Under the pieces are notes generated by a model. It searched no databases, was not told the origin of the DNA, and worked only from the letters and a program-made list of their open reading frames with translations. From assembly GCF_003362805.1 (NCBI RefSeq), contig NZ_QNQT01000002.1:186001-250000 (forward strand): a stretch of DNA of 64,000 nt, given 5' to 3'. This document shows positions 7,935 through 35,578 of the stretch, piece by piece. Position numbers and translations under genes: made by a program. Each line of letters opens with the position of its first letter. Within the stretch, counting starts at the first letter, position 1. Origin of the DNA: Neobacillus piezotolerans (lineage in GTDB: Bacteria; Bacillota; Bacilli; Bacillales; Cytobacillaceae).

Positions 7935-8300
7935 AAAGGCGCATGACAAAATGCGTCTTTTTTCTATGGAAAAGCTCTTTTTTTATTTCTTGGATTCATG
8001 AAAAAATCGATAGTTGTTATTTGTTCACAATTTGGCAAATATTTTCTGAGTCCATTTTTTCTTCTTCGACAATTTCCATTTAATTTCCTCACATTCTACC
8101 TATATCCGCCCCGAGAATTGGCTAACGATTTGTGTTTAATTTAGGTGGTTTGACGATTTATAATCTAGCTATCTGTTGGAAAAGCCATGGAAATCATTCG
8201 AAGGGAAGCGATGAAGGACCGCCTTTATGTGGACACTTGGGTGATCTGGAGCTAGTAGTGTAACCGGCCCTCTAAAAAATTTATTTTTTGGGGGAAAAAC
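7935..8300. other. AT-rich intergenic region before the Ig-repeat gene
   Basis: It contains the ybaK terminator and then AT-rich sequence. TTGACG and TATAATC are present near 8150-8165 but are only three bases apart, so they do not form a normal promoter. Just before the next gene is an A/T-rich inverted repeat (AAAAAATTTATTTTTT) running into GGGGG, the ribosome site. No ORF with a ribosome site was found. Confidence 0.5.
7938..7963 (+). terminator. Terminator of ybaK
   Basis: Hairpin GGCGCAT / ATGCGTC with one G-U pair, followed by TTTTTT. Confidence 0.75.
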
Positions 8301-11300
8301 ATGAAGAAGAAAAGCATCGCGAAAAAATGGGGTTCAACACTTTTGGTAACGACGTTAATCTTGAATGCAAGCCCAATGGCGCTTGCAGCTCCCGCCGCAC
8401 AGCCAAATGAAAAAACCGTCACAACCGGCAGGACCGAAATGAATAAAATGACAGGGAAAATCAATCTGAATCCAATTCCTGCCCGGGTCGACAATGCAAA
8501 CACTGTCCTGTTGAGTGGGACAGTCGTAATTGATGGGCCAAAGTTAGAGCTTAAAGTAAATGATCAAATTGTAAGTCCTAAACTTACAAAAATGAGTGAC
8601 ACTGTCTGGGCATTTGAATATGTCCATCCGCTCGATGAGAAAAATTTAAAAAACAAAAATGATGAACAAATTACCATTGATGCTTACACCGTTTACCAAA
8701 ATGGCAAGACAGCGGGACAGGTGCATACGAGTGCACCGTCAGTTTTTACAACGGTAGACCTTACTCCGCCGGATATTAATTTTAATGACTATACAAAAGA
8801 CTGGACAAATCAAAGTATTACGGTGTTTGCCACTATGAATGAAAAAGGCACGTTGAATGCCAATAGCCATACCTTTGATGAAAATGGCAGTTTCACCTTC
8901 GTCGCCACTGATTTGGCGGGGAACGTTACGGAGAAAACAATAACAATTGATAATATTGATAAGGTAGCCCCAAAAGCGGAGGTTCAATATTCAACGAAAT
9001 CACCGATCAATACGGAGGTGGTTGCCACTATTAAAGCAAATGAATCTGTAACGTATACGAACATTGACCAACTCCCTGAATATGTAGCCTTTACTGAGGA
9101 AGCATCGACTCTTACTTTCTCTGAAAATGCCAGTTTTGAATTAAAATTTATTGATAGAGCTGGAAACCCGGGTTCGGTGAACGTTTCGGTAAACAATATT
9201 GATAAGAAAGCTCCAGTAGGATCCATTACTCTTACCACCAGTGAATGGACAAACCAAGATGTAACAGCGACGGTGGCTGTCACTAAGCCAGTTACATTTA
9301 CTAACCTTAATGAATTGCCTGAAACAGTTGCTTTTAAGACAGTAGACGAGTTGACCTACACACTTACTTTTACTGAAAACGAGAACATAAATCTTAAGTT
9401 TAAGGATGCAGCAGGAAATACCGCCGAAGTAAATGTTAATATCTCAAATATTGACAAAGTGGCTCCAACCGCCGAAGTAAGCTATTCAACTGAAAAGCTT
9501 ACAAACCAGGATGTTGTCGTGACAATTGAGCCAAGTGAGGATGTAACAATCCTGAATAACGAAGGTTCATTAAGCAAAACATTCACAGAAAATGGCGAGT
9601 TTGTATTTCATTTTGTCGATATGGCAGGGAACAGGGGATCAGCTAAAGTTTCTGTAAAGAACATTGACAAAATTGCTCCAAAAATCACAATCAGTGAATA
9701 TGCGACCGATTGGACGAACCAGGATGTCACTGTAACTGCTAGCATGGATGAAGATGGAACGCTAAATGCGGTAAGTTATACTTTCACTGAAAATGGCAGC
9801 TTTGAGTTTGTCGCGACAGACCTTGCCGGGAATGTTACAAGGTACACTGTCCAAATCAACAACATTGATAAGGTGGCTCCAGAAATCACGGTAAAACCGT
9901 ACAATACAGACTGGACAAACCAGGATATTACGGTCGAGGTTTTAATGGATGAAGAAGGTACCCTAAACAAACAGAGCCATACGTTCGCCGAAAATGGCAG
10001 CTTCACTTTCATTGCTACCGACCGGGCAGGAAATATTACCGAGAAAACAGTAACCATTTCAAACATCGATAAAATTGCTCCTGAAATCACTGTTGAGGAT
10101 TATGTTACTAGTCCGACAAACAAGGACATCACTGTAAAAGTTAGCATGAATGAGCCTGGTACATTAAACCAGGAAAGCTATACATTTGAAGAAAATGGCG
10201 AGTTCGAGTTCATTGCGACCGACCGTGCCGGAAATGAAACGAAGAAGAAAATTGTCATAACCAACATTGACAAGGTTGCGCCAAGTATCACTGTATTTAC
10301 CTATAACACATCACCAACCAATCAGGATGTTGTCGTGACAGCTGAAACAAACGAAGGTACATTGAATGCAACTAGCCATACCTTCACGGAAAATGGATCT
10401 TTTGATTTTATTGCAACCGACGATGCCGGCAATGAGACGGTAGAAACCATTACAATTACAAATATCGATAAAGTTCCTCCTATCATTACAGTAAATCCTT
10501 ATAACGGAGAACCGACAAATCAGGATGTCATCGTTACGGTTGAAACCAACGAAGGGACACTGAACGCTTCATCCCACATTTTCACGGTAAATGGTAAATT
10601 TGAATTTGTTGCTTCTGACGAAGCCGGGAACGTAACAAAAGTAACAGTTTCGATTAATAATATTGATAAAACACCGCCAACTGTAAGTGATGTCATTAAT
10701 GGATTTGCTTACAATATTGATGTAAAACCAACCTTCGATGAAGGAACAGCGACCCTGAATGGTAAACCATACCATTTGGGCACAGCGGTATCAGCTGAAG
10801 GAAGCTATATCTTGATCGTAACTGATTCGGTGGGAAATGCCACAACTGTGACATTCACAATCGATAAAACCGCACCAGTCGTGAGCGGAGTGTTGAATAA
10901 TCAATATACCAAAGAAGATGTTATACCGACATTTAACGAAGGTACTGCTACTTTGAATGGCAAAACATTTGTATCTGGAACCCCTGTATCCAGCGAAGGA
11001 GTTTACACTCTAGTCGTGAGGGATGCGGCAGGAAATGAAACTAAAGTATCTTTTACAATCGATAAGACAGCTCCGAGCTTAACAGGTGTAAGTGCGGCAA
11101 ATGACAACAATGGAAAAAACGCAAAAACAACGGTTTCTGGTTCTGCCGAGCCGGAAGCGACTATAAATGTATATGTAGGTAAAGATTTAGTAGGTAGTGG
11201 AACCGTAGCTTCAAATGGCAGGTTTAGTTTTGAACTAACTAAATCCCAAGGGAGAGACACTGAATTAATCGTTCGGGCATTTGATAGAGCAAACAATTCA

Positions 11301-11327
11301 ACAGAAGTAAAAGTAAAAGTTAAGTAA
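8301..11327 (+). CDS. Large secreted protein of about 11 tandem Ig-like repeats
   Basis: This 1008-residue protein has a signal peptide ending near residue 30 (MALAAPAA). A non-repeated N-terminal domain extends to about 150, followed by about eleven Ig-like units of 60-80 residues. Each unit ends in a linker such as NIDKVAPEITV or NIDKIAPKITI, with internal motifs like TENGSFEFVATDLAGNVT. The last unit (about 925-1008) resembles a bacterial Ig domain of another type (GSAEPEATINVYV). No LPXTG, SLH or transmembrane anchor is visible, so it is either released or held by non-covalent binding. A role in adhesion or matrix is plausible but unproven. The gene is more A/T-rich than its neighbours, hinting at separate ancestry. 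Confidence 0.85.
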   Translation: MKKKSIAKKWGSTLLVTTLILNASPMALAAPAAQPNEKTVTTGRTEMNKMTGKINLNPIPARVDNANTVLLSGTVVIDGPKLELKVNDQIVSPKLTKMSDTVWAFEYVHPLDEKNLKNKNDEQITIDAYTVYQNGKTAGQVHTSAPSVFTTVDLTPPDINFNDYTKDWTNQSITVFATMNEKGTLNANSHTFDENGSFTFVATDLAGNVTEKTITIDNIDKVAPKAEVQYSTKSPINTEVVATIKANESVTYTNIDQLPEYVAFTEEASTLTFSENASFELKFIDRAGNPGSVNVSVNNIDKKAPVGSITLTTSEWTNQDVTATVAVTKPVTFTNLNELPETVAFKTVDELTYTLTFTENENINLKFKDAAGNTAEVNVNISNIDKVAPTAEVSYSTEKLTNQDVVVTIEPSEDVTILNNEGSLSKTFTENGEFVFHFVDMAGNRGSAKVSVKNIDKIAPKITISEYATDWTNQDVTVTASMDEDGTLNAVSYTFTENGSFEFVATDLAGNVTRYTVQINNIDKVAPEITVKPYNTDWTNQDITVEVLMDEEGTLNKQSHTFAENGSFTFIATDRAGNITEKTVTISNIDKIAPEITVEDYVTSPTNKDITVKVSMNEPGTLNQESYTFEENGEFEFIATDRAGNETKKKIVITNIDKVAPSITVFTYNTSPTNQDVVVTAETNEGTLNATSHTFTENGSFDFIATDDAGNETVETITITNIDKVPPIITVNPYNGEPTNQDVIVTVETNEGTLNASSHIFTVNGKFEFVASDEAGNVTKVTVSINNIDKTPPTVSDVINGFAYNIDVKPTFDEGTATLNGKPYHLGTAVSAEGSYILIVTDSVGNATTVTFTIDKTAPVVSGVLNNQYTKEDVIPTFNEGTATLNGKTFVSGTPVSSEGVYTLVVRDAAGNETKVSFTIDKTAPSLTGVSAANDNNGKNAKTTVSGSAEPEATINVYVGKDLVGSGTVASNGRFSFELTKSQGRDTELIVRAFDRANNSTEVKVKVK

Positions 11328-13449: not shown

Positions 13450-13938
13450 ATGGAAGACAACAAGAATGAGTATTTTTATGGGCAAGTACCCTATCAGGAA
13501 GTAGAGGATAACAGGCAATTTCCGGGAGGAGGCCAAACCGGCGGCCAGTTTCCGGGAGGCGGGCAGATGGGAGGCCAATTCCCAGGCGGGGGGCCAGGCG
13601 GCCAGTTCCCGGGAGGCGGGCAAACGGGAGGACAATTTCCTGGGGGTGGCCCAGGGGGAGGGTTTCCAGGGGGAGAACACGACGGGCCGCCGTCCGGGCC
13701 GCCGCCGTTTGCAACCCCTCTTGAAGCGCAAGGGGCGACTTCTTTAGCCATCGATCCGGGTGCAATTCGTTTCTGCCGGAACCGCTTCACTTATATATGG
13801 ATGAACAGCGGACGAAGTTTTTGGTTCTACCCGGTCTTTATCGGACGGACGTCGATTGCGGGCTGGCGCTATAGGAGAAATGGGTGGACGTTTTACGGAA
13901 CCGATTTGCGGAGAATAAGGTCATTTAGGTGTTTTTAA
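13450..13938 (+). CDS. QFPGGG-repeat protein with conserved aromatic C-terminal domain
   Basis: This 162-residue protein has a short acidic N-terminus and then about seven imperfect repeats of QFPGGGQTGG type (residues 23-75). A Pro-rich linker follows, then a conserved C-terminal module of about 60 residues rich in Phe, Tyr, Trp and Arg (RNRFTYIWMNSGRSFWFYPV). That module is familiar from short Bacillus proteins, often spore-associated, with low-complexity N-termini. There is no signal peptide. The ribosome site GGAGGAGG precedes ATG 13450. A structural spore or surface role is inference. Confidence 0.75.
   Translation: MEDNKNEYFYGQVPYQEVEDNRQFPGGGQTGGQFPGGGQMGGQFPGGGPGGQFPGGGQTGGQFPGGGPGGGFPGGEHDGPPSGPPPFATPLEAQGATSLAIDPGAIRFCRNRFTYIWMNSGRSFWFYPVFIGRTSIAGWRYRRNGWTFYGTDLRRIRSFRCF
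13518..13680 (+). repeat. In-gene tandem repeats encoding QFPGGG units
   Basis: GC-rich imperfect repeats of 24-33 bp around TTTCCGGGAGGCGGGCA give the QFPGGG protein repeats. They are prone to length change by slippage or recombination. Confidence 0.75.
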
Positions 13939-23349: not shown

Positions 23350-24156
23350 ATGAACAGGAAAAGCTGTCCCGATGAGTACCCTATTAATCTTTCGGTCAAC
23401 GGCTATGAAATTGCCGTTTTCCAGCTGACGAAATCCGATTTGGAGGACTGGGCATACGGTTATCTTTTTTCCGAAGGGATGATCGAGTCTGCCGATGACA
23501 TAGAGGAAGTTGCTTTCCATGAAGGGACTGCGACCCTCCAGGTAACGCTTGCCAATCCGTTTGACGGGGAGAAATTGTTCTCCAAGAAAAAGCATTATAC
23601 CGCCGGTTGCGGGCGGGGGGTAACGTTTTTTTCGATGACGGATGTAAAACAGTTTGAAAAGATCCGTTCGAACCAGAGGTATCCATTAAGCTATTTGCTT
23701 AAAAAACGGGCGGAATTCGCCCAATGCTCGACGCTTTATTTGGAAACGGGAGGCATGCATGGCGCCTGCATCATTGATGCGGAAGGCCTCATGACTGTCC
23801 GTGAAGATATCGGCCGCCATAACGCGGTCGACAAGATTATAGGTTTTTGCGTCAGGAACCGCCTCAATCCAGAGAAGCTTATTCTTCTGACAACAGGAAG
23901 GGTTTCCTATGAAATGCTCTCAAAGGCAGCAAAATTTGGCTTTGCCGTCATAGGTTCAAGGACTGCCGCAACGAAGCAGGCTGTCCAGTTAGCCAAATAT
24001 TTAAATATAGAGGTTGTTGGCTATTTAAGGGGGAAAATGGCCGTCATTTATACCTCGGCAGGAAGGGTCCATAGCGACCTAAGGGAGACTGCGGCTGCAG
24101 AAGTTTATGGGGAGGAGGGAATTGGAGGGGCTGTTCACCAGCTTGCTCTGGATTAA
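23350..24156 (+). CDS. fdhD: Formate dehydrogenase accessory sulfurtransferase FdhD
   Basis: FdhD transfers sulfur from a cysteine desulfurase to the bis-MGD molybdenum cofactor before its insertion into formate dehydrogenase. This 268-residue protein shows the cysteine-containing loop (HYTAGCGRGVTFF, about residues 88-100) and the conserved REDIGRHNAVDKIIG (about 152-166). The tail LTTGRVSYEMLSKAAKFG is also typical. The RBS GGGAGGAAAGG precedes ATG 23350. It is the first gene of the island, 47 bp before the catalytic subunit. Confidence 0.93.
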   Translation: MNRKSCPDEYPINLSVNGYEIAVFQLTKSDLEDWAYGYLFSEGMIESADDIEEVAFHEGTATLQVTLANPFDGEKLFSKKKHYTAGCGRGVTFFSMTDVKQFEKIRSNQRYPLSYLLKKRAEFAQCSTLYLETGGMHGACIIDAEGLMTVREDIGRHNAVDKIIGFCVRNRLNPEKLILLTTGRVSYEMLSKAAKFGFAVIGSRTAATKQAVQLAKYLNIEVVGYLRGKMAVIYTSAGRVHSDLRETAAAEVYGEEGIGGAVHQLALD

Positions 24157-24203: not shown

Positions 24204-27185
24204 ATGGTTGAAATCAACCTGAACCGCCGGCAATTTTTAAAACTGTCAGGCGCCACCGCGGCCACATTGGCCATCGTCGAGCTGGGATTTGATGAAAAAT
24301 CAGCTTATGCGAAATCGAAAGAACTTAAAATTGCCCAAGCAAAAGTAACGCCAACCATTTGCTGCTATTGCGGCGTAGGGTGCGGAATCCTTGTCCACAC
24401 AAAAGACAACACAGTTGTGTACACAGAAGGGGATCCCGACAACCCAATCAACGAAGGAAAGCTTTGCTCAAAAGGAACCACTTTAAGGCAGCTTTACACA
24501 TCCGAAAAGCGATTGACAAAACCGTTGTACCGCGCTCCGGGCAGCAGTACATGGGAGGAAAAAGACTGGGAATGGATGTATGACGCCATCACCAAGCGAC
24601 TCAAGGAAACGCGTGATGCTTCTTTTGTGGAAAAAGAAAATGGAATGATTGTCAATAAAACCGAGCGGATCGCCAGCATGGGCGGAGCCGCGCTTGATAA
24701 TGAAGAATGCTATTTGCTCGCTAAACTGATGAGAGGGCTTGGCGTCGTTTATCTCGAACACCAGGCACGAATATGACATAGTTCTACGGTTGCCGGTCTG
24801 GCACCTACATTTGGTCGTGGAGCAATGACTAACCATTGGAATGATCTGCAATATACCGATTGTGCCCTGATTATGGGTGCTAACCCTGCTGAAAACCATC
24901 CGATTTCATTCAGGTGGCTGACAAAGGCGAGGGAAAAAGGAGCGAAAATTGTTTCGGTTGACCCGCGCTACACAAGGTCTTCCGCTATGTCAGATGTTTA
25001 CGCACCGCTTCGTTCCGGTACAGACATCGCTTTTCTTGCAGGAATGATCAATTATGCAATCGATAACAATTTGATCCACAAGGAGTATGTTGCTAAATAT
25101 ACAAATGCTTCATTCATCCTTAAGGATAGCTATGAATTCAATGATGGCCTATTCTCTGGGTATGATGAAGCAAAGCGCATCTATGACAAAACAAAATGGG
25201 CATTCGAGACAGATGAAGAAGGGAAGCCGGTCAAAGACCTGACCCTTGAACATCCACGTTCTGTTTTCCAAATGATGAGAAAGCATTATTCCCGTTACAC
25301 AATTGATAAAATCGTTGAAACAACTGGGACTCCTAAGGAGGATTTCCTGAAGGTTTGTGAAGCATTCTGTTCTACCGGAAAAGTAGGCAAATCAGGCGTC
25401 ATCATGTATGCAATGGGCATTACCCAGCATACAGTCGGTTCCCAAAACGTCCGTGCGATGGCGATGCTGCAGCTCTTGCTCGGCAATGTCGGCGTTCCTG
25501 GAGGCGGCCTTGCAGCCATGCGGGGTGAATCAAACGTACAGGGTTCGACAGACTTCGCCCTTCTTTACGGAGACCTGCCTGGTTACGTGGGAGTGCCAAA
25601 AGCGACTGTCCCTGAACATGCGACTCTCGCTGGCTACAATGAAAAAGAAACACCTAAAACAGGCTACTGGAGCAACAAGCCTAAATTCATGGTCAGCATG
25701 CTGAAAGCCTGGTACGGCCCAAATGCGACCAAGGAAAATGAATTCTGCTATCAGTATCTGCCAAAAGGAAATAAAAACTATTCCCATATCAACCTATTCA
25801 ATGCCATGTATAACAAGGGAATCGATGGATTGTTCCTATTCGGGACCAACCCTGTTGTAGGGGGCCCTAATGCGGGCAAGGAGAAAGAATCGCTTGCCAA
25901 CCTGAAATGGCTTGTAGCAGTTGATTTGTGGGAAACAGAATCGTCTGCATTCTGGAAAAAGGAAGCTGGCGCCGATCCGAATAAAATTGCAACAGAAGTA
26001 TTCCTGCTCCCAGCATCGGCATCATTTGAAAAAGAAGGATCTGTATCGAACAGCTCCCGCTGGATGCAGTATCGCTGGAAAGCGATTGATTCAAGGGGAG
26101 AAGCAAAAGCGGACCTGGAAATCATCCATGAGTTTGCAACAAGAATCAAGGCGCTTTACAAAAATGAAAACTCACCGATTGCCCGTCCAATCAATGCTCT
26201 TTATTGGAACTTCGGCGAAGGAAGCCATCCGGATATAGACCTTGTCTGTAAGGAAATCAACGGTTATGATCTTACGACCGGCAAGCTTCTTCCTGGATTT
26301 GGCAAGTTGATGGACGATGGAACAACATCAAGCGGAAACTGGATTTATTCCGGCTTCTATCCTGAAGAAGGAAAGAACCGTGCGAAAAACCGTGATGCGA
26401 AAACAGGCGGCCCTAACTTCCTGAACTGGTCCTATGCGTGGCCGATGAATCGCCGTATCATTTATAACCGTGCTTCGGCCGATCCGCAAGGCGCTCCTTG
26501 GAGCAAAGATAAGGAAGTCATCCATTGGGATGCTCTCCAAAGCAAATGGGTCGGAAACGATGTACCTGACTTTGTAGTCGACAAGGCGCCATCTGACCCG
26601 GGCGGACAAAATCCGTACATCATGCTGAAGGATGGTGTGGCAGGAATTTTTGCCGGCCTGAATGAAGGTCCGTTCCCTGAACACTACGAGCCGTTTGAGA
26701 GCCCTATTTCCAATGTGTTCTCAAAGCAGAATTTAAACCCAGCTGTCCAAATCTTTGAAGGTGATTTCAACCTTAAGGGTGATAACAAGGATTTCCCAAT
26801 TGTTGCAACAACCTATCGGGTAAGCGAACATTGGCAGTCTGGATCCATGACAAGAAACCAGGAATGGCTGTCTGAGCTTGTAGGCCATATGTTTGTAGAA
26901 ATCAGTGAAGAACTGGCAAAAGAAAAGGGCATCAAGAATAAGGACAAAGTAATCGTTACCTCAGCCCGTGGAGAGGTTGAAGCCTACGCCATGGTGACGA
27001 AGCGTTTCAAGCCATATAAAATAAAAGGCAAAAAGGTCCATCAAATTGGCATGCCTTGGCATTTTGGTTACAAAGGGTACGCAACAGGGGATTCGGCAAA
27101 CCATTTGACACCGCACATCGGCGATGCGAATACAACCATCCCTGAGTACAAAGCATTCCTTTGCGACGTAAGGAGGAAGGGCTAA
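24204..27185 (+). CDS. fdnG: Formate dehydrogenase catalytic subunit, selenocysteine-containing (FdnG-type)
   Basis: This is a 993-residue molybdopterin oxidoreductase read through an in-frame TGA at 24774-24776 as Sec191. The segment before the TGA (LEHQARI) and the segment after (HSSTVAGLAPTFGRGAMTNH) align with the RVU-HGPTVA active site of E. coli FdnG. No other frame disruption is seen. The N-terminus has a twin-arginine signal (NRRQFLK), so the enzyme faces outside. C53, C56, C60 and C88 bind a [4Fe-4S] cluster. C-terminal molydopterin-binding sequence runs to GDANTTIPEY near the end. The enzyme oxidises formate to CO2 and passes electrons to the Fe-S and cytochrome b subunits downstream. 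Conventional gene calling splits it in two at 24776. Confidence 0.93.
24788..24805 (+). promoter_or_regulatory. Bacterial SECIS element of fdnG
   Basis: GGTTGCCGGTCTGGCACC folds as GG-(bulged U)-UGCC, loop GGUCU, GGCA-CC. It begins 11 nt after the TGA. E. coli fdhF has the same spacing, bulged U and GGUCU loop, the features recognised by SelB. It recodes UGA as selenocysteine. Confidence 0.88.
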
Positions 27186-28012
27186 TGCCGGAATACGTAA
27201 AATATGTTGATGTCACTAAATGTGATGGGTGCCGTGCCTGTATGGTGGCGTGCAAGAACTGGAATGACCTTCCCGCCGAGGAAACAAACTTCCTTGGAAG
27301 CGTTCAATCGCATCCAAAGGTAACAGCTGATACATGGAATGTCTTGCAATACATTGAGCATGAAAACTCGAAAGGCGATTTGGATTATCTTTTCCGCCAT
27401 TCCTCCTGTTTCCACTGCAAAGATGCGGCTTGTGAAAAAGTTTGCCCTGAGAATGCCATTTCCTACACCGAATTTGGGACAGTTGTCATTGACCAGGAGA
27501 AGTGTGTAGGCTGCGGATATTGTGTCCAGAACTGCCCGTTCGATGTTATTTCGTTAAAAACGTATATTGACAAAAACGGCAAGGAATATAAGAAATCTCA
27601 TAAATGCACAATGTGCACAGACAGGATTGAAGAAGGCCTCCAGCCAGCTTGTGTAACAACCTGCCACACAGGCGCAATGGAATTCGGCAACAAAGACGAA
27701 ATGATTAAAAAAGCGGAAAAGCGCGTGACTGAGATCAAGGAACGCTATCCAAACGCGATGGTCTATAACCCTCAAGGGGTTGGCGGAACACATACCGTTT
27801 ATGTGCTGGCAGAAAAGCCATCCGTTTACGGTCTGCCTGAAAACCCTAAAGTTCCGACTTCCGCTGTATTGTGGAAGGATTATGCGCAGCCAATTGGCAA
27901 AATGATGATTGGCGCGACAACGATGGCTGTCGTTGGCGCCTTTGTTACCAACAAGCTGTTCAACAAGGAAGGCAAAGAGCATGACGAAGATGGAGGTGGA
28001 GGCAATGAGTAA
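27185..28012 (+). CDS. Formate dehydrogenase iron-sulfur (beta) subunit
   Basis: This 275-residue electron-transfer subunit has four [4Fe-4S] motifs: CDGCRACMVAC, CFHCKDAACEKVCP, CVGCGYCVQNCP, and CTMCTDRIEEGLQPACVTTC. A C-terminal membrane helix at about 238-258 (MMIGATTMAVVGAFVTNKLF) holds it to the membrane, as in FdnH. It carries electrons from the selenoprotein to the cytochrome b subunit. Its ATG overlaps the fdnG stop by one base, and GGAGGAAGG is the ribosome site. Confidence 0.93.
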   Translation: MPEYVKYVDVTKCDGCRACMVACKNWNDLPAEETNFLGSVQSHPKVTADTWNVLQYIEHENSKGDLDYLFRHSSCFHCKDAACEKVCPENAISYTEFGTVVIDQEKCVGCGYCVQNCPFDVISLKTYIDKNGKEYKKSHKCTMCTDRIEEGLQPACVTTCHTGAMEFGNKDEMIKKAEKRVTEIKERYPNAMVYNPQGVGGTHTVYVLAEKPSVYGLPENPKVPTSAVLWKDYAQPIGKMMIGATTMAVVGAFVTNKLFNKEGKEHDEDGGGGNE

Positions 28013-28715
28013 GCCAATCAGGCCGGACATTAAAGTAAGGCGTTTTTCAAAAGCATTCGTTTGGGCTCATGCTGTAAATGCCATTTCCTTCTTCGCCCTG
28101 TACATTACAGCCCTTCCGATGTATACAGAGTTTTTCGACTGGCTTTATCCGGTTTTAGGCGGACCCGCCAACGCTCGCCTGCTTCACAGGATATTTGCGG
28201 TAACATTTGTTATGCCGACGTTCATCTGGCTCATCTTCGACCCTAAAGGCTTTATGGTATGGATGAAGGAGCTCGTCACCTGGAAAAAGAGGGACCTTCA
28301 ATTCTTCACGGAATTTGTAAAAGAACTATTCGGTTTCAAATTCAAGCATGTGAAGCAAACATTCTTTAACGCAGGTGAAAAAATCAACTCGATTATCCAG
28401 ATTGTAACGGCCATTCTGATTATCGGTTCTGGTTTCCCGATGTGGTTCCCGCACCTGTTTCCGAAGGCTGTCGTCCAATGGGGTTATTTTTTCCACAATG
28501 TGGGCTTTGGCCTTGCGATCGCGGTAGTTGTCGGCCACGTCTATCTGAGCGTGGTGCACAAGAATTCCCGCCCTGGCTATTCAGGCGTCGTGACCGGGAA
28601 GGTTCCTGCCTGGTGGGCAAAGGAGCACTACACCGAGTGGTATGAAGAAGAGGTTGAAAAAGGCAATTTCCCTGATCTTGATAAACTCAATAAAAAGAAA
28701 CACAAAGGCGCATAG
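28005..28715 (+). CDS. Formate dehydrogenase cytochrome b (gamma) subunit
   Basis: This 236-residue membrane protein has about four helices and histidines placed for two b haems: WAHAVNAISF, RLLHRIFAVT, YFFHNVGFGL and VVGHVYLSVVH. It passes electrons from the Fe-S subunit to menaquinone. ATG 28005 follows GGAGGTGGAGG and overlaps the beta subunit by eight bases, which argues against the longer frame beginning at 27909. An intergenic repeat directly abuts its 3' end. Confidence 0.92.
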   Translation: MSKPIRPDIKVRRFSKAFVWAHAVNAISFFALYITALPMYTEFFDWLYPVLGGPANARLLHRIFAVTFVMPTFIWLIFDPKGFMVWMKELVTWKKRDLQFFTEFVKELFGFKFKHVKQTFFNAGEKINSIIQIVTAILIIGSGFPMWFPHLFPKAVVQWGYFFHNVGFGLAIAVVVGHVYLSVVHKNSRPGYSGVVTGKVPAWWAKEHYTEWYEEEVEKGNFPDLDKLNKKKHKGA

Positions 28716-28881: not shown

Positions 28882-29046
28882 TTGGAAATCAGCTTGAAAA
28901 AAGACTAAAAGGGGAATGGCTGTCTATATGGACAGCCATTCCTGCTAAATGGAACCCTCACCGGAAAACGGGAATTATAATTCCGGTAATTACAAAAAGA
29001 AATAGTGCTGCTTTGCAGTATACTTTATGAAAAGAGGTGCAATGGG

Positions 29047-29856
29047 TTGAAAACATCCGTCGTCTCAAAAGATTATCAGAACTTGCAGAAGGAAATCATT
29101 GGGTTGCAAGAGAAATGGAAAGAAGGCCTTGGCAGCGAGGCGGTCACAATCAAAACGGATAAGACGGCAATGAGCGCCGGGGTGCCAGTGGCGGCACTTT
29201 CAATTTTTGATTTTGATATTCCACTATTTTTACAGTGGATAGAGGAAATTAAAGGGTTGTTGGTGAAGAATAATGATAAGATGGAAGAGAAGCTCGTTTT
29301 TTTAAACAACATAATGGACGAAAATACGGCGCAGCGCTGGATTGATGAAGCGCTTGCGTTTAACCATATTTATTTTCACAGATTCGCCGAGGAGCATGGT
29401 GTGGAAGAATGGATTCCTTACTTCCTTGCGGAAACAGCGCTCCGCCCATATTTGCGGCTGGCAGCAGAAAAAGCCCAGCCAGAAATCGTTTCTGGAAATC
29501 ATGGGGCCGGCTGCCCGGTTTGCGGTGAACCAGCCAGGCTGGCGCAGCTTGAAGGGGAAGGAAAGAAGGAATTGTGTTGCCCGCGTTGCCTTGCCCACTG
29601 GAATGATAAACGGGTTAGCTGCTCCCATTGCGGGAACGAGGATCATGAAACCATGAAGTATCTAACCGTGGAAGGTGATGCCGCTTCCCAAATCCAGGTT
29701 TGCGAAAAGTGCCGCGGCTATATAAAAATTGTCGATACAAGGCAGTTTATCAATAAGCCATCCGCGGCCATGCTTGATTTGACTACACTTCATCTTGATT
29801 TCGTCGCCCAGGAAAACGGCTACCTTCCAGGCGGGAGCGGGGAAACGGAAAACTAA
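29047..29856 (+). CDS. fdhE: Formate dehydrogenase accessory protein FdhE
   Basis: This 269-residue cytoplasmic maturation factor for exported formate dehydrogenase has a helical N-terminal half and a C-terminal rubredoxin-like metal domain. That domain contains CPVCGEPARL, CCPRCLAHW, CSHCGNEDHETMKYL and CEKCRGYIKIVD. Four CxxC pairs are the family signature. The likely start is TTG 29047, seven bases after GAGGTG; an ATG just before it is out of frame. Its presence fits an enzyme secreted by the Tat system. Confidence 0.92.
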   Translation: MKTSVVSKDYQNLQKEIIGLQEKWKEGLGSEAVTIKTDKTAMSAGVPVAALSIFDFDIPLFLQWIEEIKGLLVKNNDKMEEKLVFLNNIMDENTAQRWIDEALAFNHIYFHRFAEEHGVEEWIPYFLAETALRPYLRLAAEKAQPEIVSGNHGAGCPVCGEPARLAQLEGEGKKELCCPRCLAHWNDKRVSCSHCGNEDHETMKYLTVEGDAASQIQVCEKCRGYIKIVDTRQFINKPSAAMLDLTTLHLDFVAQENGYLPGGSGETEN

Positions 29857-29895: not shown

Positions 29896-30501
29896 ATGAA
29901 AGCGGCGGCAATTCTACTATCCGGCGGAAAATCAAGCAGGATGGGAACAAATAAGGCCCTTTTGAAAATTAACGAGAAAACGAATATTGAGAGAATACGA
30001 GATGAACTCCTCAAACTATTTGATGAAGTAATCCTTGTGACAAATGAACCAGAGGAGTACGATTTCCTTAATTTGAAAACAGTGGCGGATGAATATCCGG
30101 GGAAAGGGCCTTTGGCTGGCATCCATGCCGGCTTGAAGGCCTCCAGCTTTGACGCCAATCTCGTAGTCGCGTGCGACATGCCGTTTGTTTCCGCGGAACT
30201 CGCCGAGAATATGGTAAAGAATCTTGGCCATCATGATGCTGTCGTTCCTGTTATTGGGGGGAGGCAGCATCCGCTTTTTGCCGTTTATCAAAAAAGCATC
30301 ACGGAAGCGGTCGAGGCCTGCATACAAAAGGACAGCCTCCGCCTGAAACATTTGTTTGAAACTCTTGATGTCCTCTTTTTAACGGAGCAAGATTTGGAAA
30401 CCTATTCACATGGCTCGCTTGAACGGATATTTTTTAATATGAATAAGCCGGAGGAATACGAACTGGCCGTCCTGCAGGCGAATGAAGAAGCATCGAGATA
30501 A
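29896..30501 (+). CDS. mobA: Molybdenum cofactor guanylyltransferase MobA
   Basis: MobA adds GMP to molybdopterin to make MGD, the form used by formate dehydrogenase. This 201-residue nucleotidyltransferase shows the LSGGKSSRMGTNKALL motif at residues 8-23, then DEYPGKGPLAGIHAGL and VVACDMPFVS. It has an RBS (GAAGAAGGGG) and follows fdhE by 39 bp, so it belongs to the same operon. Confidence 0.93.
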   Translation: MKAAAILLSGGKSSRMGTNKALLKINEKTNIERIRDELLKLFDEVILVTNEPEEYDFLNLKTVADEYPGKGPLAGIHAGLKASSFDANLVVACDMPFVSAELAENMVKNLGHHDAVVPVIGGRQHPLFAVYQKSITEAVEACIQKDSLRLKHLFETLDVLFLTEQDLETYSHGSLERIFFNMNKPEEYELAVLQANEEASR

Positions 30502-30531
30502 GAGTTTCGATTGAAAGAGAGGGTTAGGGAC

Positions 30532-31764
30532 ATGCAATTTTTCAAAGTCAAAACAGTTGAGGAAACTTTCACGCTGATCGATAAACATGTAAAGAAAATC
30601 GGCGTAACCGAAAAAAGGCCGCTGGAATCCGCGCTTGGCTGTATCATTGCCGAGGATATAACCGCACGGGAAGATGTTCCAGGGTTTGACCGGTCAACAG
30701 TTGACGGTTATGCCGTGAGGGCCGAGGATACATTTGGTTCATCGGAATCGATGCCAGGTTTTCTGACTGTTGCCGGAGAGGTAAGGATGGGTGAGGCAGC
30801 CAGCTTCCCGGTCGGCTTTGGAGAAGCGGTCTACGTCCCTACGGGGGGAATGCTTCCCCCCGGCGCCAATAGCGTTATCATGATCGAGCATTGCGAAGAG
30901 ATCGCGGGACTTCTCAATACATACAAGCAGGTGGCTCCCGGGGAGAACGTCATCCGGGCGGGAGAAGATATCCGGGAAGGAGAACTCCTTCTAAGTGAAG
31001 GGACCAGGCTTAGGCCGCAGGAGATTGGGGCCCTTGCCTCCCTTGGGATAACACATGTGAGAGTATACCGAAGTCTGAAGGCGGGATATTTATCCTCGGG
31101 GGATGAAATTGTCCCCTTCGATACGCCTGAATTAAAAATAGGGCAAATCCGTGATATAAATTATTTAACAATCGCGGGCCTTGCAAAGGATTGGGGAATT
31201 GACGTCATCTATGGAGGAATCGTGCCGGATGATTATGAGGAGTTCAGGTTAAAGGCGTTTGAACTATACAATCAGGTAGACTGCCTAATCCTTTCAGGCG
31301 GAAGTTCTGTTGGCGCAAAGGACTATACAACCGAAGTCATCCAGTCGCTTGGCGATCCGGGGGTATATGTTCACGGGATATCCGTAAAACCGGGCAAGCC
31401 GACGATCCTTGCGATGGCGGGGGAAAAACCCGTGATTGGGCTTCCGGGGCATCCGGCGTCCGCCATGATTATATTCCGCCTTTTCGGCGAACGGATACTA
31501 AAGAACCTGCAAGGGGAAAATCCCGAGCACCGGCCAGACCGGATTTTCGCCAGGATTACCAAAAATATTCCCTCCGCGCCAGGCCGGTCCGATTATATCA
31601 GGGTCAGGCTATATGAAAAAGATGGCGAATGGTGGGCAGATCCGATAATAGGAAAGTCGGGTTTGATTACGACACTTGTGAAAAGCGGCGGGATTGTAGA
31701 GATAATATCTGAAAAAGAAGGCATCGCCCAGGGCGAGTACGTCCCGGTCATCGCAACAAGGTAG
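30532..31764 (+). CDS. moeA: Molybdopterin molybdenumtransferase MoeA (first copy)
   Basis: This 410-residue protein inserts molybdate (or tungstate) into adenylylated molybdopterin. MoeA domains are in order, with PGFDRSTVDGYAVRA near 50, the PTGGMLPPGAN loop near 102-112, LILSGGSSVGAKDYT near 257, and GLPGHPASAMI near 304. ATG 30532 is preferred, with AGAGAGGG upstream; the ORF opened earlier with a weak TTG. A second moeA-type gene follows directly. Confidence 0.92.
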   Translation: MQFFKVKTVEETFTLIDKHVKKIGVTEKRPLESALGCIIAEDITAREDVPGFDRSTVDGYAVRAEDTFGSSESMPGFLTVAGEVRMGEAASFPVGFGEAVYVPTGGMLPPGANSVIMIEHCEEIAGLLNTYKQVAPGENVIRAGEDIREGELLLSEGTRLRPQEIGALASLGITHVRVYRSLKAGYLSSGDEIVPFDTPELKIGQIRDINYLTIAGLAKDWGIDVIYGGIVPDDYEEFRLKAFELYNQVDCLILSGGSSVGAKDYTTEVIQSLGDPGVYVHGISVKPGKPTILAMAGEKPVIGLPGHPASAMIIFRLFGERILKNLQGENPEHRPDRIFARITKNIPSAPGRSDYIRVRLYEKDGEWWADPIIGKSGLITTLVKSGGIVEIISEKEGIAQGEYVPVIATR

Positions 31765-31776
31765 GGGGAACGGCAT

Positions 31777-33696
31777 ATGGACCAGAAACGGTATAAACGA
31801 AAAATATATCTCGAGGATAAGCCAAGGCCGAAAGCGCGGGAAGAATTGCTTGCCGCGTTTGGACTGCCGCCGCGGAAGGAATGGGTCAAAGTGGAGGATG
31901 CCCTCGGCAGGATAACAGCCGAGCCGGTATTCGCGTCGACGTCCATGCCCCATTACCATGCTTCCGCGATGGATGGGATCGCTGTAAACGCGGCGGATAC
32001 GTATAGCGCGCATGAGCAGAATCCGCTAAGGCTCGCATATGGCGAACAATTTGTTTATGTCGATACTGGCAATGCGATTCCGGCCCAGTATAACGCAGTC
32101 ATTATGATTGAAAATGTCAATGTGATCGACGACCAGACAATTGAAATCATTGAACCTGCGACACCGTGGCAGCATATCCGCCCGATTGGCGAGGACATCG
32201 TCCAGGAAGAAATGATTTTTCCCCAGGGACACAAGCTGCGCCCGGCCGATTTGGGTTCCCTGCTCGCCGCCAGAATTACTAACCTTGAAGTCGTAAATAA
32301 ACCCGTCGTTTCCATCATCCCGACAGGCAATGAGCTGATCGAGGTAACGGATGAGCCTGTGCCAGGAAAAATCATTGAGTTCAACGGTACGGTATTCGCC
32401 AATTTTGTCAAAGAGTGGGGCGGAAATCCCCGTTTGTCGGGTATTGTAAAAGATGAGCCTGAAAAGATAAAGGAAGCGCTTCTTCTCGCTGCCGAAACAT
32501 CGGATATTATTGTCATCAATGCCGGCTCTTCAGCCGGGTCAAAGGATTTTACCGTCCACATTATTGGGGAAATCGGTACAGTCTTCACCCATGGTGTCGC
32601 GGCGAGGCCAGGCAAGCCCGTCATCCTAGGCAAGATAAACGAAAAACCCGTAGTCGGTGTTCCGGGATATCCGGTTTCCGCCTATTTGGCGCTTGAATGG
32701 TTTGTGAGGCCATTGATTTGCAAATATCTGCAAATCCCCGAGCCGAAGCGGCAGACAATCCAGGTCAAGCTTGGAAGGAGAATTGTCTCCACGATGGGGC
32801 AGGAAGACTTCATCAGGATCAACATCGGTTATGTGAACGGAGAATATGTAGCCAATCCACTCACAAGGGCGGCGGGGGTGACGATGTCCTATGTCCGGGC
32901 AGACGGCCTCCTCATCGTTCCGGCGGATGTGCTGGGATACGAACAAGGGGAAACCGCTGAAGCCGAACTTCTGAAACCATTGGAAGAAGTAACAAACAGT
33001 ATCGTATTCAGCGGCAGCCATGATTTGACAATTGACCTTTTGTCTTCCCAAATAAAACAGAAGCGGTATGACATGAAAATCATCTCATCCCATGTCGGCA
33101 GCATGGCCGGGCTGATGGCCATCCGAAAAGGAGAGGCCCATGTCGCGGGAATCCATTTGCTCGATCCGGAGACAGGGGAATATAATCTTACGTATGTGAA
33201 AAAACTGCTTGATGACATGGACATTGTCCTTTTCCCATTCCTAAAAAGAAAACAAGGCTGGTTCGTACCGGAAGGAAACCCGTTTGAGATCCAGTCGGTC
33301 GCTGATATAGCCGCAAAGAACGCCCATTTCGTAAACCGCCAAAGGGGAGCGGGAACACGGATCCTTTTTGACCTACTGCTAAAAGAAGCCGGCCTGGCAC
33401 CAGATTCCATCACGGGCTACAGCAGGGAAATGTTCTCGCATCTCAGCGTCGCCGCGGAAGTGAAAGAAAATGCTGGGGCGGTCGGTCTGGGTATTTTTCC
33501 GGCGGCAAGGGCGATGGGCCTTTCCTTTATACCAGTCGCGGATGAAGAATACGACTTGGTCATGACGAAGGAATTTTTCGAGAGTGAAAAAGGCCGGTTG
33601 CTCGTTTCCGTGATTCAATCGGAAGAATTCAGGGAAAGCGTTGAGAAAATAGGGGGCTATAAAGTTGTCGCAGACGCGGCCCCGAAGATAGGGTAA
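31777..33696 (+). CDS. moeA: MoeA-type protein fused to a periplasmic-binding-protein-like domain
   Basis: This 639-residue fusion has a MoeA region at residues 1-410 (STSMPHYHASAMDGIAV, AGSSAGSKDFT, GVPGYPVSAYLALEW). It is followed by a PBP-like domain at 420-635 (VFSGSHDLTIDLLSSQIK, HVAGIHLLDPETGEYN, QRGAGTRILFDLLLKEAG) of the type seen in ModE-linked and tungstate/molybdate proteins. The fusion probably binds an oxyanion or helps choose between metals. No signal peptide is present, so the domain acts in the cytoplasm. The RBS TAGGGGGAACGG precedes ATG 31777, 12 bp after the first moeA. Confidence 0.9.
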   Translation: MDQKRYKRKIYLEDKPRPKAREELLAAFGLPPRKEWVKVEDALGRITAEPVFASTSMPHYHASAMDGIAVNAADTYSAHEQNPLRLAYGEQFVYVDTGNAIPAQYNAVIMIENVNVIDDQTIEIIEPATPWQHIRPIGEDIVQEEMIFPQGHKLRPADLGSLLAARITNLEVVNKPVVSIIPTGNELIEVTDEPVPGKIIEFNGTVFANFVKEWGGNPRLSGIVKDEPEKIKEALLLAAETSDIIVINAGSSAGSKDFTVHIIGEIGTVFTHGVAARPGKPVILGKINEKPVVGVPGYPVSAYLALEWFVRPLICKYLQIPEPKRQTIQVKLGRRIVSTMGQEDFIRINIGYVNGEYVANPLTRAAGVTMSYVRADGLLIVPADVLGYEQGETAEAELLKPLEEVTNSIVFSGSHDLTIDLLSSQIKQKRYDMKIISSHVGSMAGLMAIRKGEAHVAGIHLLDPETGEYNLTYVKKLLDDMDIVLFPFLKRKQGWFVPEGNPFEIQSVADIAAKNAHFVNRQRGAGTRILFDLLLKEAGLAPDSITGYSREMFSHLSVAAEVKENAGAVGLGIFPAARAMGLSFIPVADEEYDLVMTKEFFESEKGRLLVSVIQSEEFRESVEKIGGYKVVADAAPKIG

Positions 33697-33768
33697 GACA
33701 GAAGGGTTCATTTTAAAAACCATGGGAGGCGCTTTGGGCGCTTCCGCATTTCAATGGAGGCGGGATGC

Positions 33769-34230
33769 ATGTTTGAAATCTCTAAAGAACCGATTGAAAT
33801 CCAGGCTGTGATTGATAAGGTCGTCCAGCGGGAAGCCGGAGCAATCACTACATTCATTGGAACAGTCCGGGAGCTGACCCATGGCAAAAAAACGCTCTAC
33901 CTCATTTATGAAGCGTATGAAGCGATGGCCGTGAAAAAACTTGAGCAAATCGGCCAGGAAATCGAGGAACGCTGGCCGGGCGCCAAAGTGGCCATCAGCC
34001 ATCGGGTCGGCAGGCTGGACATTACCGATATCGCGGTGGTCATTGCTGTTTCGACCCCGCACCGCGCCGATGCTTATGAAGCAAACCGTTATGCAATTGA
34101 GCGGATCAAGGAAATCGTCCCTATCTGGAAAAAGGAGCATTGGGAGGACGGCGAAGAGTGGGTAGGCAACCAGCTGGAAACAGTAGCCTACCCGACAGGC
34201 AAGCCCGAGGAAGGTGATTTGAATGAATAA
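33769..34230 (+). CDS. moaE: Molybdopterin synthase large subunit MoaE
   Basis: MoaE converts precursor Z (cPMP) to molybdopterin with sulfur from MoaD. This 153-residue protein shows GAITTFIGTVRELTHGKK, SHRVGRLDITDIAVVIAVST, HRADAYEANRYAIERIKEI and PIWKKEHWEDGEEWVGN with the catalytic lysines. ATG 33769 lies eight bases after GGAGG; an upstream ATG at 33754 overlaps that site. It overlaps moaD by eight bases. Confidence 0.93.
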   Translation: MFEISKEPIEIQAVIDKVVQREAGAITTFIGTVRELTHGKKTLYLIYEAYEAMAVKKLEQIGQEIEERWPGAKVAISHRVGRLDITDIAVVIAVSTPHRADAYEANRYAIERIKEIVPIWKKEHWEDGEEWVGNQLETVAYPTGKPEEGDLNE

Positions 34231-34456
34231 AGTCATGTTTTTTGCCCATTTGCGCGATGCTGCCGGCATTGACTCCATCACGGTCGATGCCGCGGGCAAG
34301 ACGGTTGCGGAATTAAAGGCCGAACTCGCCCAAAAATACGATTTGCCAAAAATGGATACAGTAATGGCGGCAATCAACGAAGAGTTTTCATCGAATGAAG
34401 AAACGATCAATGAAGGTGACGTTATCGCCTTCATCCCTCCGGTAAGCGGGGGCTAA
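34223..34456 (+). CDS. moaD: Molybdopterin synthase small subunit MoaD
   Basis: This 77-residue ubiquitin-fold sulfur carrier ends in the required Gly-Gly (FIPPVSGG), whose C-terminus is adenylylated by MoeB and then thiocarboxylated. It pairs with MoaE. The ATG overlaps the end of moaE and follows GAGGAAGGTG. Confidence 0.92.
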   Translation: MNKVMFFAHLRDAAGIDSITVDAAGKTVAELKAELAQKYDLPKMDTVMAAINEEFSSNEETINEGDVIAFIPPVSGG

Positions 34457-34479
34457 AAACTCAGGTCAATAGATGAACG

Positions 34480-34508
34480 CAGGGCTTCCCGAAATAAAGG
34501 AAGCCCTG
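34480..34508 (+). other. Stem-loop between moaD and moeB
   Basis: A 10-bp inverted repeat CAGGGCTTCC / GGAAGCCCTG with a nine-base loop. It has no T-run, so it is more likely a processing or attenuation structure than a terminator. Confidence 0.5.
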
Positions 34509-34558
34509 TCCTATCTAGTGCGAAGTCCACTATCCATGGCAGGAAGGGGAAAATAAGA

Positions 34559-35578
34559 ATGGCAGAGAGATATTCAAGGCAGATCCTTTTTCCCGGGATT
34601 GGCAGGGAGGGGCAGGAGAAAATCCGCTCCAAACATGTATTGCTAGTGGGAGCCGGGGCGCTTGGTTCTGGTAACGGGGAAATACTGACGAGGGCTGGAA
34701 TTGGCAGACTGACGATCATAGACAGGGATTACGTAGAGGAGAGCAATCTTCAACGGCAGCAGCTGTATACCGAGGCTGATGTTGAACAAAAGCTTCCCAA
34801 GGCAGCGGCTGCTGAAAAAAGGCTCCGGGCCATTAACAGCGACGTTGAAATAGAAGCGATTATCGGCGACGCCACTCCTGAAGTATTGGAAGGGCTGGCA
34901 AACGGGATCGATTTGATCATTGATGCGACCGATAATTTCGAAACGAGGATGGCCATTAATGACGTGTCCCAAAAATACCGGATTCCGTGGATTTACGGCG
35001 CATGTGTCGGCAGCCATGGCATGAGCTTTACAATCCTTCCGGGAACGACTCCATGCCTGAATTGCCTTCTGAGGAGAATTCCGCTTCAGGGCCTTACCTG
35101 CGATACGGGAGGAATCATCGCGCCGGCTGTCCAGATGGCCATCTCCCATCAGTCGGCAGAGGCGCTGAAAATCCTTGTCGAGGATTGGGAAGCGATCCGG
35201 AGCACATTTGTCAGTTTTGATCTATGGCGGAATGAGTATACAGCCATGAAAATGTCGAAGGCAAAATTCCCGGGGTGCCTCTCATGCGGAGAACATCCAA
35301 CCTACCCGTATCTTGACAAGGAAAACATGACAAAAACGACCGTGCTGTGCGGACGGGATACAGTCCAAATACGGCCCTCCGCCAAAGGGGAGATTTCGCT
35401 TGAAAAGCTCGCATCCCAGCTTGGTTCCCTCGGTTATGAGGTAAAGGGCAATCCTTACCTTCTATCAGTTGAACTTGGCGGGGAAAGGATGGTCATTTTC
35501 AAGGATGGACGCGCCCTCATCCACGGAACAAAAGACCTGACACATGCAAAATCGGTATACCAAAGGATTATGGGGTAA
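34559..35578 (+). CDS. moeB: MoeB/ThiF-family adenylyltransferase
   Basis: This 339-residue E1-like enzyme adenylylates the C-terminus of MoaD. It has the nucleotide-binding GAGALGSGNGEILTRAGIG (about 31-49), DRDYVEESNLQRQ, the zinc CxxC pairs CLNCLLRR and CLSCG, and QRQQLYTEADV. The last 90 residues lack the rhodanese domain of some MoeBs and instead form a small ThiS/MoaD-like or unknown domain (TTVLCGRDTVQIRPS, LIHGTKDLTHAKSVYQRIMG). ThiF activity cannot be excluded, but the moaD context favours MoeB. Confidence 0.87.
   Translation: MAERYSRQILFPGIGREGQEKIRSKHVLLVGAGALGSGNGEILTRAGIGRLTIIDRDYVEESNLQRQQLYTEADVEQKLPKAAAAEKRLRAINSDVEIEAIIGDATPEVLEGLANGIDLIIDATDNFETRMAINDVSQKYRIPWIYGACVGSHGMSFTILPGTTPCLNCLLRRIPLQGLTCDTGGIIAPAVQMAISHQSAEALKILVEDWEAIRSTFVSFDLWRNEYTAMKMSKAKFPGCLSCGEHPTYPYLDKENMTKTTVLCGRDTVQIRPSAKGEISLEKLASQLGSLGYEVKGNPYLLSVELGGERMVIFKDGRALIHGTKDLTHAKSVYQRIMG

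Follow-up and report, generated by a model that had tools for sequence, protein, structure and literature searches.

The window analysed here, a stretch of 64,000 nucleotides from Neobacillus piezotolerans, carries an ordinary selenium-containing formate dehydrogenase gene, whose internal TGA is very probably read as selenocysteine (Sec). The gene, its UGA, a constrained hairpin, the four decoding genes and the neighbouring subunit and cofactor genes are all present, and we have little doubt that the locus is a functional formate dehydrogenase-N operon, encoding an exported enzyme that depends on molybdopterin and has a selenoprotein as its alpha subunit. Full-length translation, Sec chemistry, export and the electron path would follow by analogy with known members. 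In this model, SelD would make selenophosphate, SelA would convert Ser-tRNA-Sec into Sec-tRNA-Sec, and SelB with Sec-tRNA-Sec would be held by a SECIS hairpin beginning 11 bases behind the UGA; at this UGA, codon 191, Sec would be inserted instead of termination. The Sec residue would then bind the active-site metal, and the electrons of formate would reach the quinone pool by way of the beta subunit and the gamma subunit.

In frame +1 the alpha gene consists of 190 codons, the TGA, 802 codons and a final TAA (27183-27185), without a shift and with this single interruption. A mechanical gene call yields two open reading frames, 24204-24776 (190 aa) and 24825-27185 (786 aa), the very split that the original prediction had expected of standard gene calling. 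Read through, the protein scores 1275.6 bits against TIGR01553 (FdnG; cut-off 814.2) over residues 6-990 of 993. Its best solved match is chain 9qm0_A (1026 bits, query 6-991), which is named 'Formate dehydrogenase, alpha subunit, selenocysteine-containing', and such chains rank first among the solved matches; E. coli FdnG (1kqf) follows with 938 bits (query 5-990). These near end-to-end alignments bear out the claim that homology runs on both flanks of the TGA without frameshift, and the placing of the TGA at the Sec position of FdnG also stands, given that it aligns to the internal TGA of fdnG in E. coli K-12 (locus L125, base 2987; the gene start at 2402 makes it codon 196). The residue after Sec is His (TGA then CAT, 24774-24779). 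We take the N-terminal RRQFLKLSG to be of the Tat type and CCYCGVGCG to be a Cys-rich 4Fe-4S motif.

Features of the window, in positions counted from its first letter
Feature	Position	Strand	Remarks
fdhD, formate dehydrogenase accessory sulfurtransferase	23350..24156	+	TIGR00129 163.6 bits, cut-off 140.9; below the NF001943 cut-off
fdnG-type formate dehydrogenase alpha gene	24204..27185	+	993 residues, Sec at 191; TIGR01553 match
Rare codon pair CGA-ATA, codons 189-190	24768..24773	+	directly before the Sec TGA; codon counts
In-frame TGA, codon 191	24774..24776	+	inferred Sec codon
SECIS region	24777..24830	+	synonymous constraint, apical pairs, Cys-copy control
Apical hairpin GGU(U)GCC-GGUCU-GGCACC	24788-24805	+	within the SECIS region
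Formate dehydrogenase beta subunit, 4Fe-4S protein	27161..28012	+	TIGR01582 238.7 bits, below cut-off 334.7
Formate dehydrogenase gamma subunit, membrane cytochrome b type	27909..28715	+	TIGR01583 80.5 bits, below cut-off 115.85; mechanical ORF start
FdhE-like accessory protein	29005..29856	+	TIGR01562 54.9 bits, below cut-off 187.65
Molybdenum cofactor genes, whole block	29896..35578	+	profile matches
mobA-like	29896-30501	+	below curated cut-off
moeA-like	30511-31764	+	below curated cut-off
moeA with additional C-terminal domain (PRK14498 type)	31777-33696	+	over cut-off
moaE-like	33754-34230	+	below curated cut-off
moeB/thiF type	34559-35578	+	over cut-off

The genes around the alpha gene can be set beside known systems. 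The beta and gamma genes follow it in order, their best matches being formate dehydrogenase beta and gamma subunits, both below curated cut-offs; the mechanical beta frame opens at a TTG, and the ATG at 27185, which overlaps the alpha stop, is the likelier start. E. coli FdnGHI shares with the window the UGA at the same codon, the hairpin in the same place and the alpha-beta-gamma gene order. It differs in sequence, the two alpha proteins being 44% identical over the best tblastn segment, and in that the window cluster also holds fdhD, a gene like fdhE and genes for the molybdenum cofactor. The Sec FdhA chains 9qm0, 8cm4 and 6sdr we take to be Desulfovibrio vulgaris FdhAB, a soluble two-subunit enzyme; in the window, by contrast, a gene for a membrane gamma subunit follows. 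Two moeA-type genes adjoin at 30511-33696, the second with the extra C-terminal domain. Elsewhere in the window, a cyclic di-GMP-II riboswitch (8195-8278, 68.7 bits) ends 22 bases before an open reading frame of 1008 residues (8301-11327), which has many similar repeats and a signal-like N-terminus and which, labelled by eye, is likely a surface protein; a Gly-rich frame at 13450-13938 contains short tandem repeats, about 30 and 57 bases long (13516-13655).

Directly behind the UGA is a SECIS hairpin under selection. We aligned 101 loci, comprising 80 homologue-search records, 20 from genomes of the own family, and E. coli (93 distinct loci, E. coli included). Codon 191 is TGA in 99 of them, and TGT and TGC in the remaining two. 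With E. coli left out, all 90 distinct Sec genes keep the six apical pairs and use one synonymous codon each at codons 195-199. Mean normalised synonymous entropy at codons 195-200 is 0.022 versus 0.75 gene-wide (387 scored positions), the lowest value among the 382 runs of six scored positions, and in the wider set of 106 distinct Sec orthologues the single exception is a codon 196 that reads GTA instead of GTT. Both Cys copies (L098 and L106), each of which shares a genome or bin with a Sec copy (L111 and L105, respectively), have a decayed hairpin, its bases being lost partly at synonymous sites. The single-sequence fold is unexceptional (z -1.14, with 26 of 200 shuffles as stable; z -1.31, with 21 of 200), and the apical pairs are nearly invariant, a U-A pair becoming U-G in four of the 90 sequences; in the E. 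coli hairpin a C-G pair is replaced by A-U and another apical pair is a U-U mismatch. Because near-invariant pairs make covariation say little, the evidence for the hairpin is its frozen synonymous sites together with the Cys-copy control. An extended lower stem in the minimum-energy fold was rejected, as it is only partly conserved, with standard pairing at two of its positions in 50 and 52 of the 90 sequences.

The host almost certainly makes Sec. The original prediction had said as much and had named a lack of selB and selC as the observation that would speak against it; when the genome was checked (4.53 Mb, 36 contigs, 99.98% complete), both were present, along with selA and selD, all over curated cut-offs. 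They occupy three separate sites and form no single operon: selB (C1:895707-897566, 362.2 bits, cut-off 242.25), tRNA-Sec (selC; C1:772128-772220, 65.2 bits, cut-off 47), and the pair of selA (C35:200168-201550, 560.6 bits, cut-off 267.9) and selD (C35:198702-199628, 396.3 bits, cut-off 125). The selD gene has one in-frame TGA of its own, and the 48-base stretch starting there folds at -20.5 kcal/mol. ARAGORN also calls a tRNA-SeC with anticodon tca in this genome; the tRNA-Sec model marks several non-standard pairs in the tRNA, two of them at the inner end of the acceptor arm. Of the 14 genomes used as controls, E. coli and M. jannaschii alone exceed the selB cut-off, and B. subtilis does not. 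The tRNA-Sec model exceeds its cut-off in five controls, including Caulobacter, Thermus and Thermotoga, which have no selB over cut-off, and tRNA matches alone are therefore weak evidence.

Is such decoding exceptional in this group of bacteria? The original prediction had held Sec-containing proteins to be uncommon in Bacillales and the trait to be rare, a view that does not survive the counts. Within the own family of 193 genomes, selB is over cut-off in 170, tRNA-Sec in 172 and selD in 180, and the dehydrogenase is found at E 1e-100 or better in 121; the eight genomes of the own genus, this one included, have one dehydrogenase copy each with one TGA each. No match to the dehydrogenase at E 1e-100 occurs in 51 of the 170 selB genomes, and some of these may maintain the machinery solely for the Sec of SelD. 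Among the selD matches listed for the family, seven lack an inner stop, all from genomes without selB over cut-off, and the others have one TGA. An even draw from the order gives selB over cut-off in 179 of 397 genomes (67 of 136 genera), but the dehydrogenase at E 1e-180 in only 27, of which 26 also have selB, the exception being G389 (about 480 contigs). Thus the Sec trait is common in Bacillales, and more than formate dehydrogenase would appear to keep it there. A draw from the phylum has the dehydrogenase in 97 of 398 genomes. B. subtilis is described as lacking selB (in the part of PMC1780047 consulted), in agreement with our control, and the impression of rarity may stem from this species.

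Two further observations concern Sec genes in relatives. One of these relatives, genome G043, has a gene of the GrdB type that is interrupted by an in-frame TGA (L198, G043:C16:58000-72000; 669 bits against TIGR01918, cut-off 65.45), and about 4 kb behind it lie a second tRNA-Sec and a second selB. A Bacillus-type genome would here put Sec to another use, in a reductase for glycine or betaine. In some relatives two tRNA-Sec matches share a contig (for example G160:C12, G035:C129 and G043:C16, where they are about 16, 19 and 53 kb apart); mobile islands at selC may be the cause.

Bacilli are known to read through UGA at a low level, and a near-cognate tRNA could in principle decode this codon (as Trp or Cys, for instance) with no part played by the Sec machinery. 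We consider this very improbable, as selB tracks the gene in 119 of the 121 dehydrogenase genomes (tRNA-Sec in 120) and the hairpin, constrained in Sec genes, has decayed in each of the Cys copies. The two exceptions are drafts, G006, without selB, and G078, with neither selB nor tRNA-Sec, 88% and 66% complete. An alternative in which a former Cys or Sec gene is dead in this strain, its TGA being due to a nonsense mutation or to a sequencing error, would agree with the gene being split by a mechanical caller, yet we give this hardly any credence: the frame has no other break, the full decoding machinery is in the same genome, and the sites behind the TGA are under synonymous constraint. Since the TGA recurs at codon 191 in 99 of the 101 loci, a sequencing error there is very unlikely; a split gene, a pseudogene and a sequencing error were all rejected. 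Equally hard to credit are two proteins, a product of 190 residues ending at the TGA and a restart at the ATG of 24825, which does begin the 786-aa frame, as such products would lack the catalytic residue, the solved relatives of near full length each form one chain and the two Cys copies (G006:C159 and G184:C60) run on without a stop.

The codons directly before the Sec TGA are also constrained. Our codon set holds 106 distinct Sec orthologues, 62 to 94% identical, that is, 117 distinct genes less the two Cys copies and nine distant ones; 70 are homologue-search records, not necessarily all from the order, and 36 are from the own-family and order draws. Codon 190 is ATA in all 105 orthologues with Ile there, ATA making up 7.3% of the other Ile codons in the whole set; the 106th (L090, Ammoniphilus, Paenibacillaceae) has Leu CTC. 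Codon 189 is CGA in 83 of 106, compared with 5.7% of the other Arg codons. As a pair, CGA-ATA accounts for 83 of 105 Arg-Ile cases at this site versus none of the 216 Arg-Ile neighbours elsewhere in the 106 genes. The family and order draws alone give ATA at codon 190 in 51 of 51 distinct genes, with CGA preceding in 38. Genes without CGA at codon 189 are mostly the less similar orthologues, and part of the CGA signal may therefore be shared descent; ATA at codon 190 spans orthologues down to 63% identity (L123).

The Cys copies, only two in number, have AGA-ATT and CGA-ATC at codons 189-190, and E. coli fdnG has CGC-GTC where the window gene has CGA-ATA. Eight distant Sec paralogues show ATA (5), TTA (2) and GTT (1) at codon 190. 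The 28 best-scoring other-class homologues with loci, of 97 phylum genomes matched, show ATC 12, ATA 5, CTC 4, ATT 3, TTG 3 and GTC 1, with ATA at 16.0% of their other Ile codons and CGA at codon 189 in none. A general rule of an A before the Sec UGA was rejected: in Sec selD the preceding codon is GGT or GGC in 21 of 21 genes (own genome and 20 picked relatives), and the rare-codon feature is therefore not general to Sec genes. A structure pairing codons 189-190 with the hairpin was rejected likewise; the RNAalifold consensus of up to 79 distinct sequences contained nothing but the apical hairpin, so that fold does not explain the upstream constraint.

We tentatively raise the possibility that the formate dehydrogenase genes of this lineage carry a bipartite Sec signal, a SECIS joined by a rare codon pair kept by selection, which might slow the ribosome while the SECIS refolds and SelB loads, or lower termination through the P-site tRNA. 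Both a function of the pair and its slowness in bacilli are conjectural, and a nucleotide-level constraint of another kind may apply instead. Earlier studies of 5' context in E. coli fdhF may be relevant to the codons before a Sec UGA. A literature search for a 5' codon signal at Sec UGAs turned up nothing that we recognised in the portions of text it returned, including those of PMC4513850 and PMC8659212. In yeast, CGA-AUA belongs to the inhibitory codon pairs whose position is conserved (PMC6379720, in part). For E. coli, portions of PMC4513850 propose that the SelB complex is recruited to the SECIS ahead of the arriving ribosome, and that termination may follow if the SECIS, once the preceding ribosome has passed, has yet to refold. 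Slow codons immediately before the UGA would be in keeping with this model.

The window gene belongs to a kind already known. Sec formate dehydrogenases of Neobacillus, Mesobacillus, Cytobacillus, Robertmurraya and others have the same TGA codon and the same SECIS, and beside them it is ordinary. In the sections consulted, Zhang et al. 2006 (PMC1794560) list three selenoprotein families and three selenoproteins for Firmicutes/Bacillales and name FdhA and SelD as the most widespread selenoproteins, Peng et al. 2016 (PMC5029168) report that 21.5% of more than 5200 genomes have the Sec trait and that FdhA is a selenoprotein in 822 organisms, and UGA with SECIS is described in general terms (PMC9312934). 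Given that Bacillales selenoproteins and FdhA have been tabulated before, the gene is one more member; the rare codons before its UGA are unexpected and testable. The distribution reported here corrects the view of Sec as exotic in Bacillus-type bacteria, and the annotation of such dehydrogenase genes needs the UGA to be read through. If functional, the rare codons would offer a way of testing how insertion and termination at a Sec UGA are balanced by the codons upstream of it.
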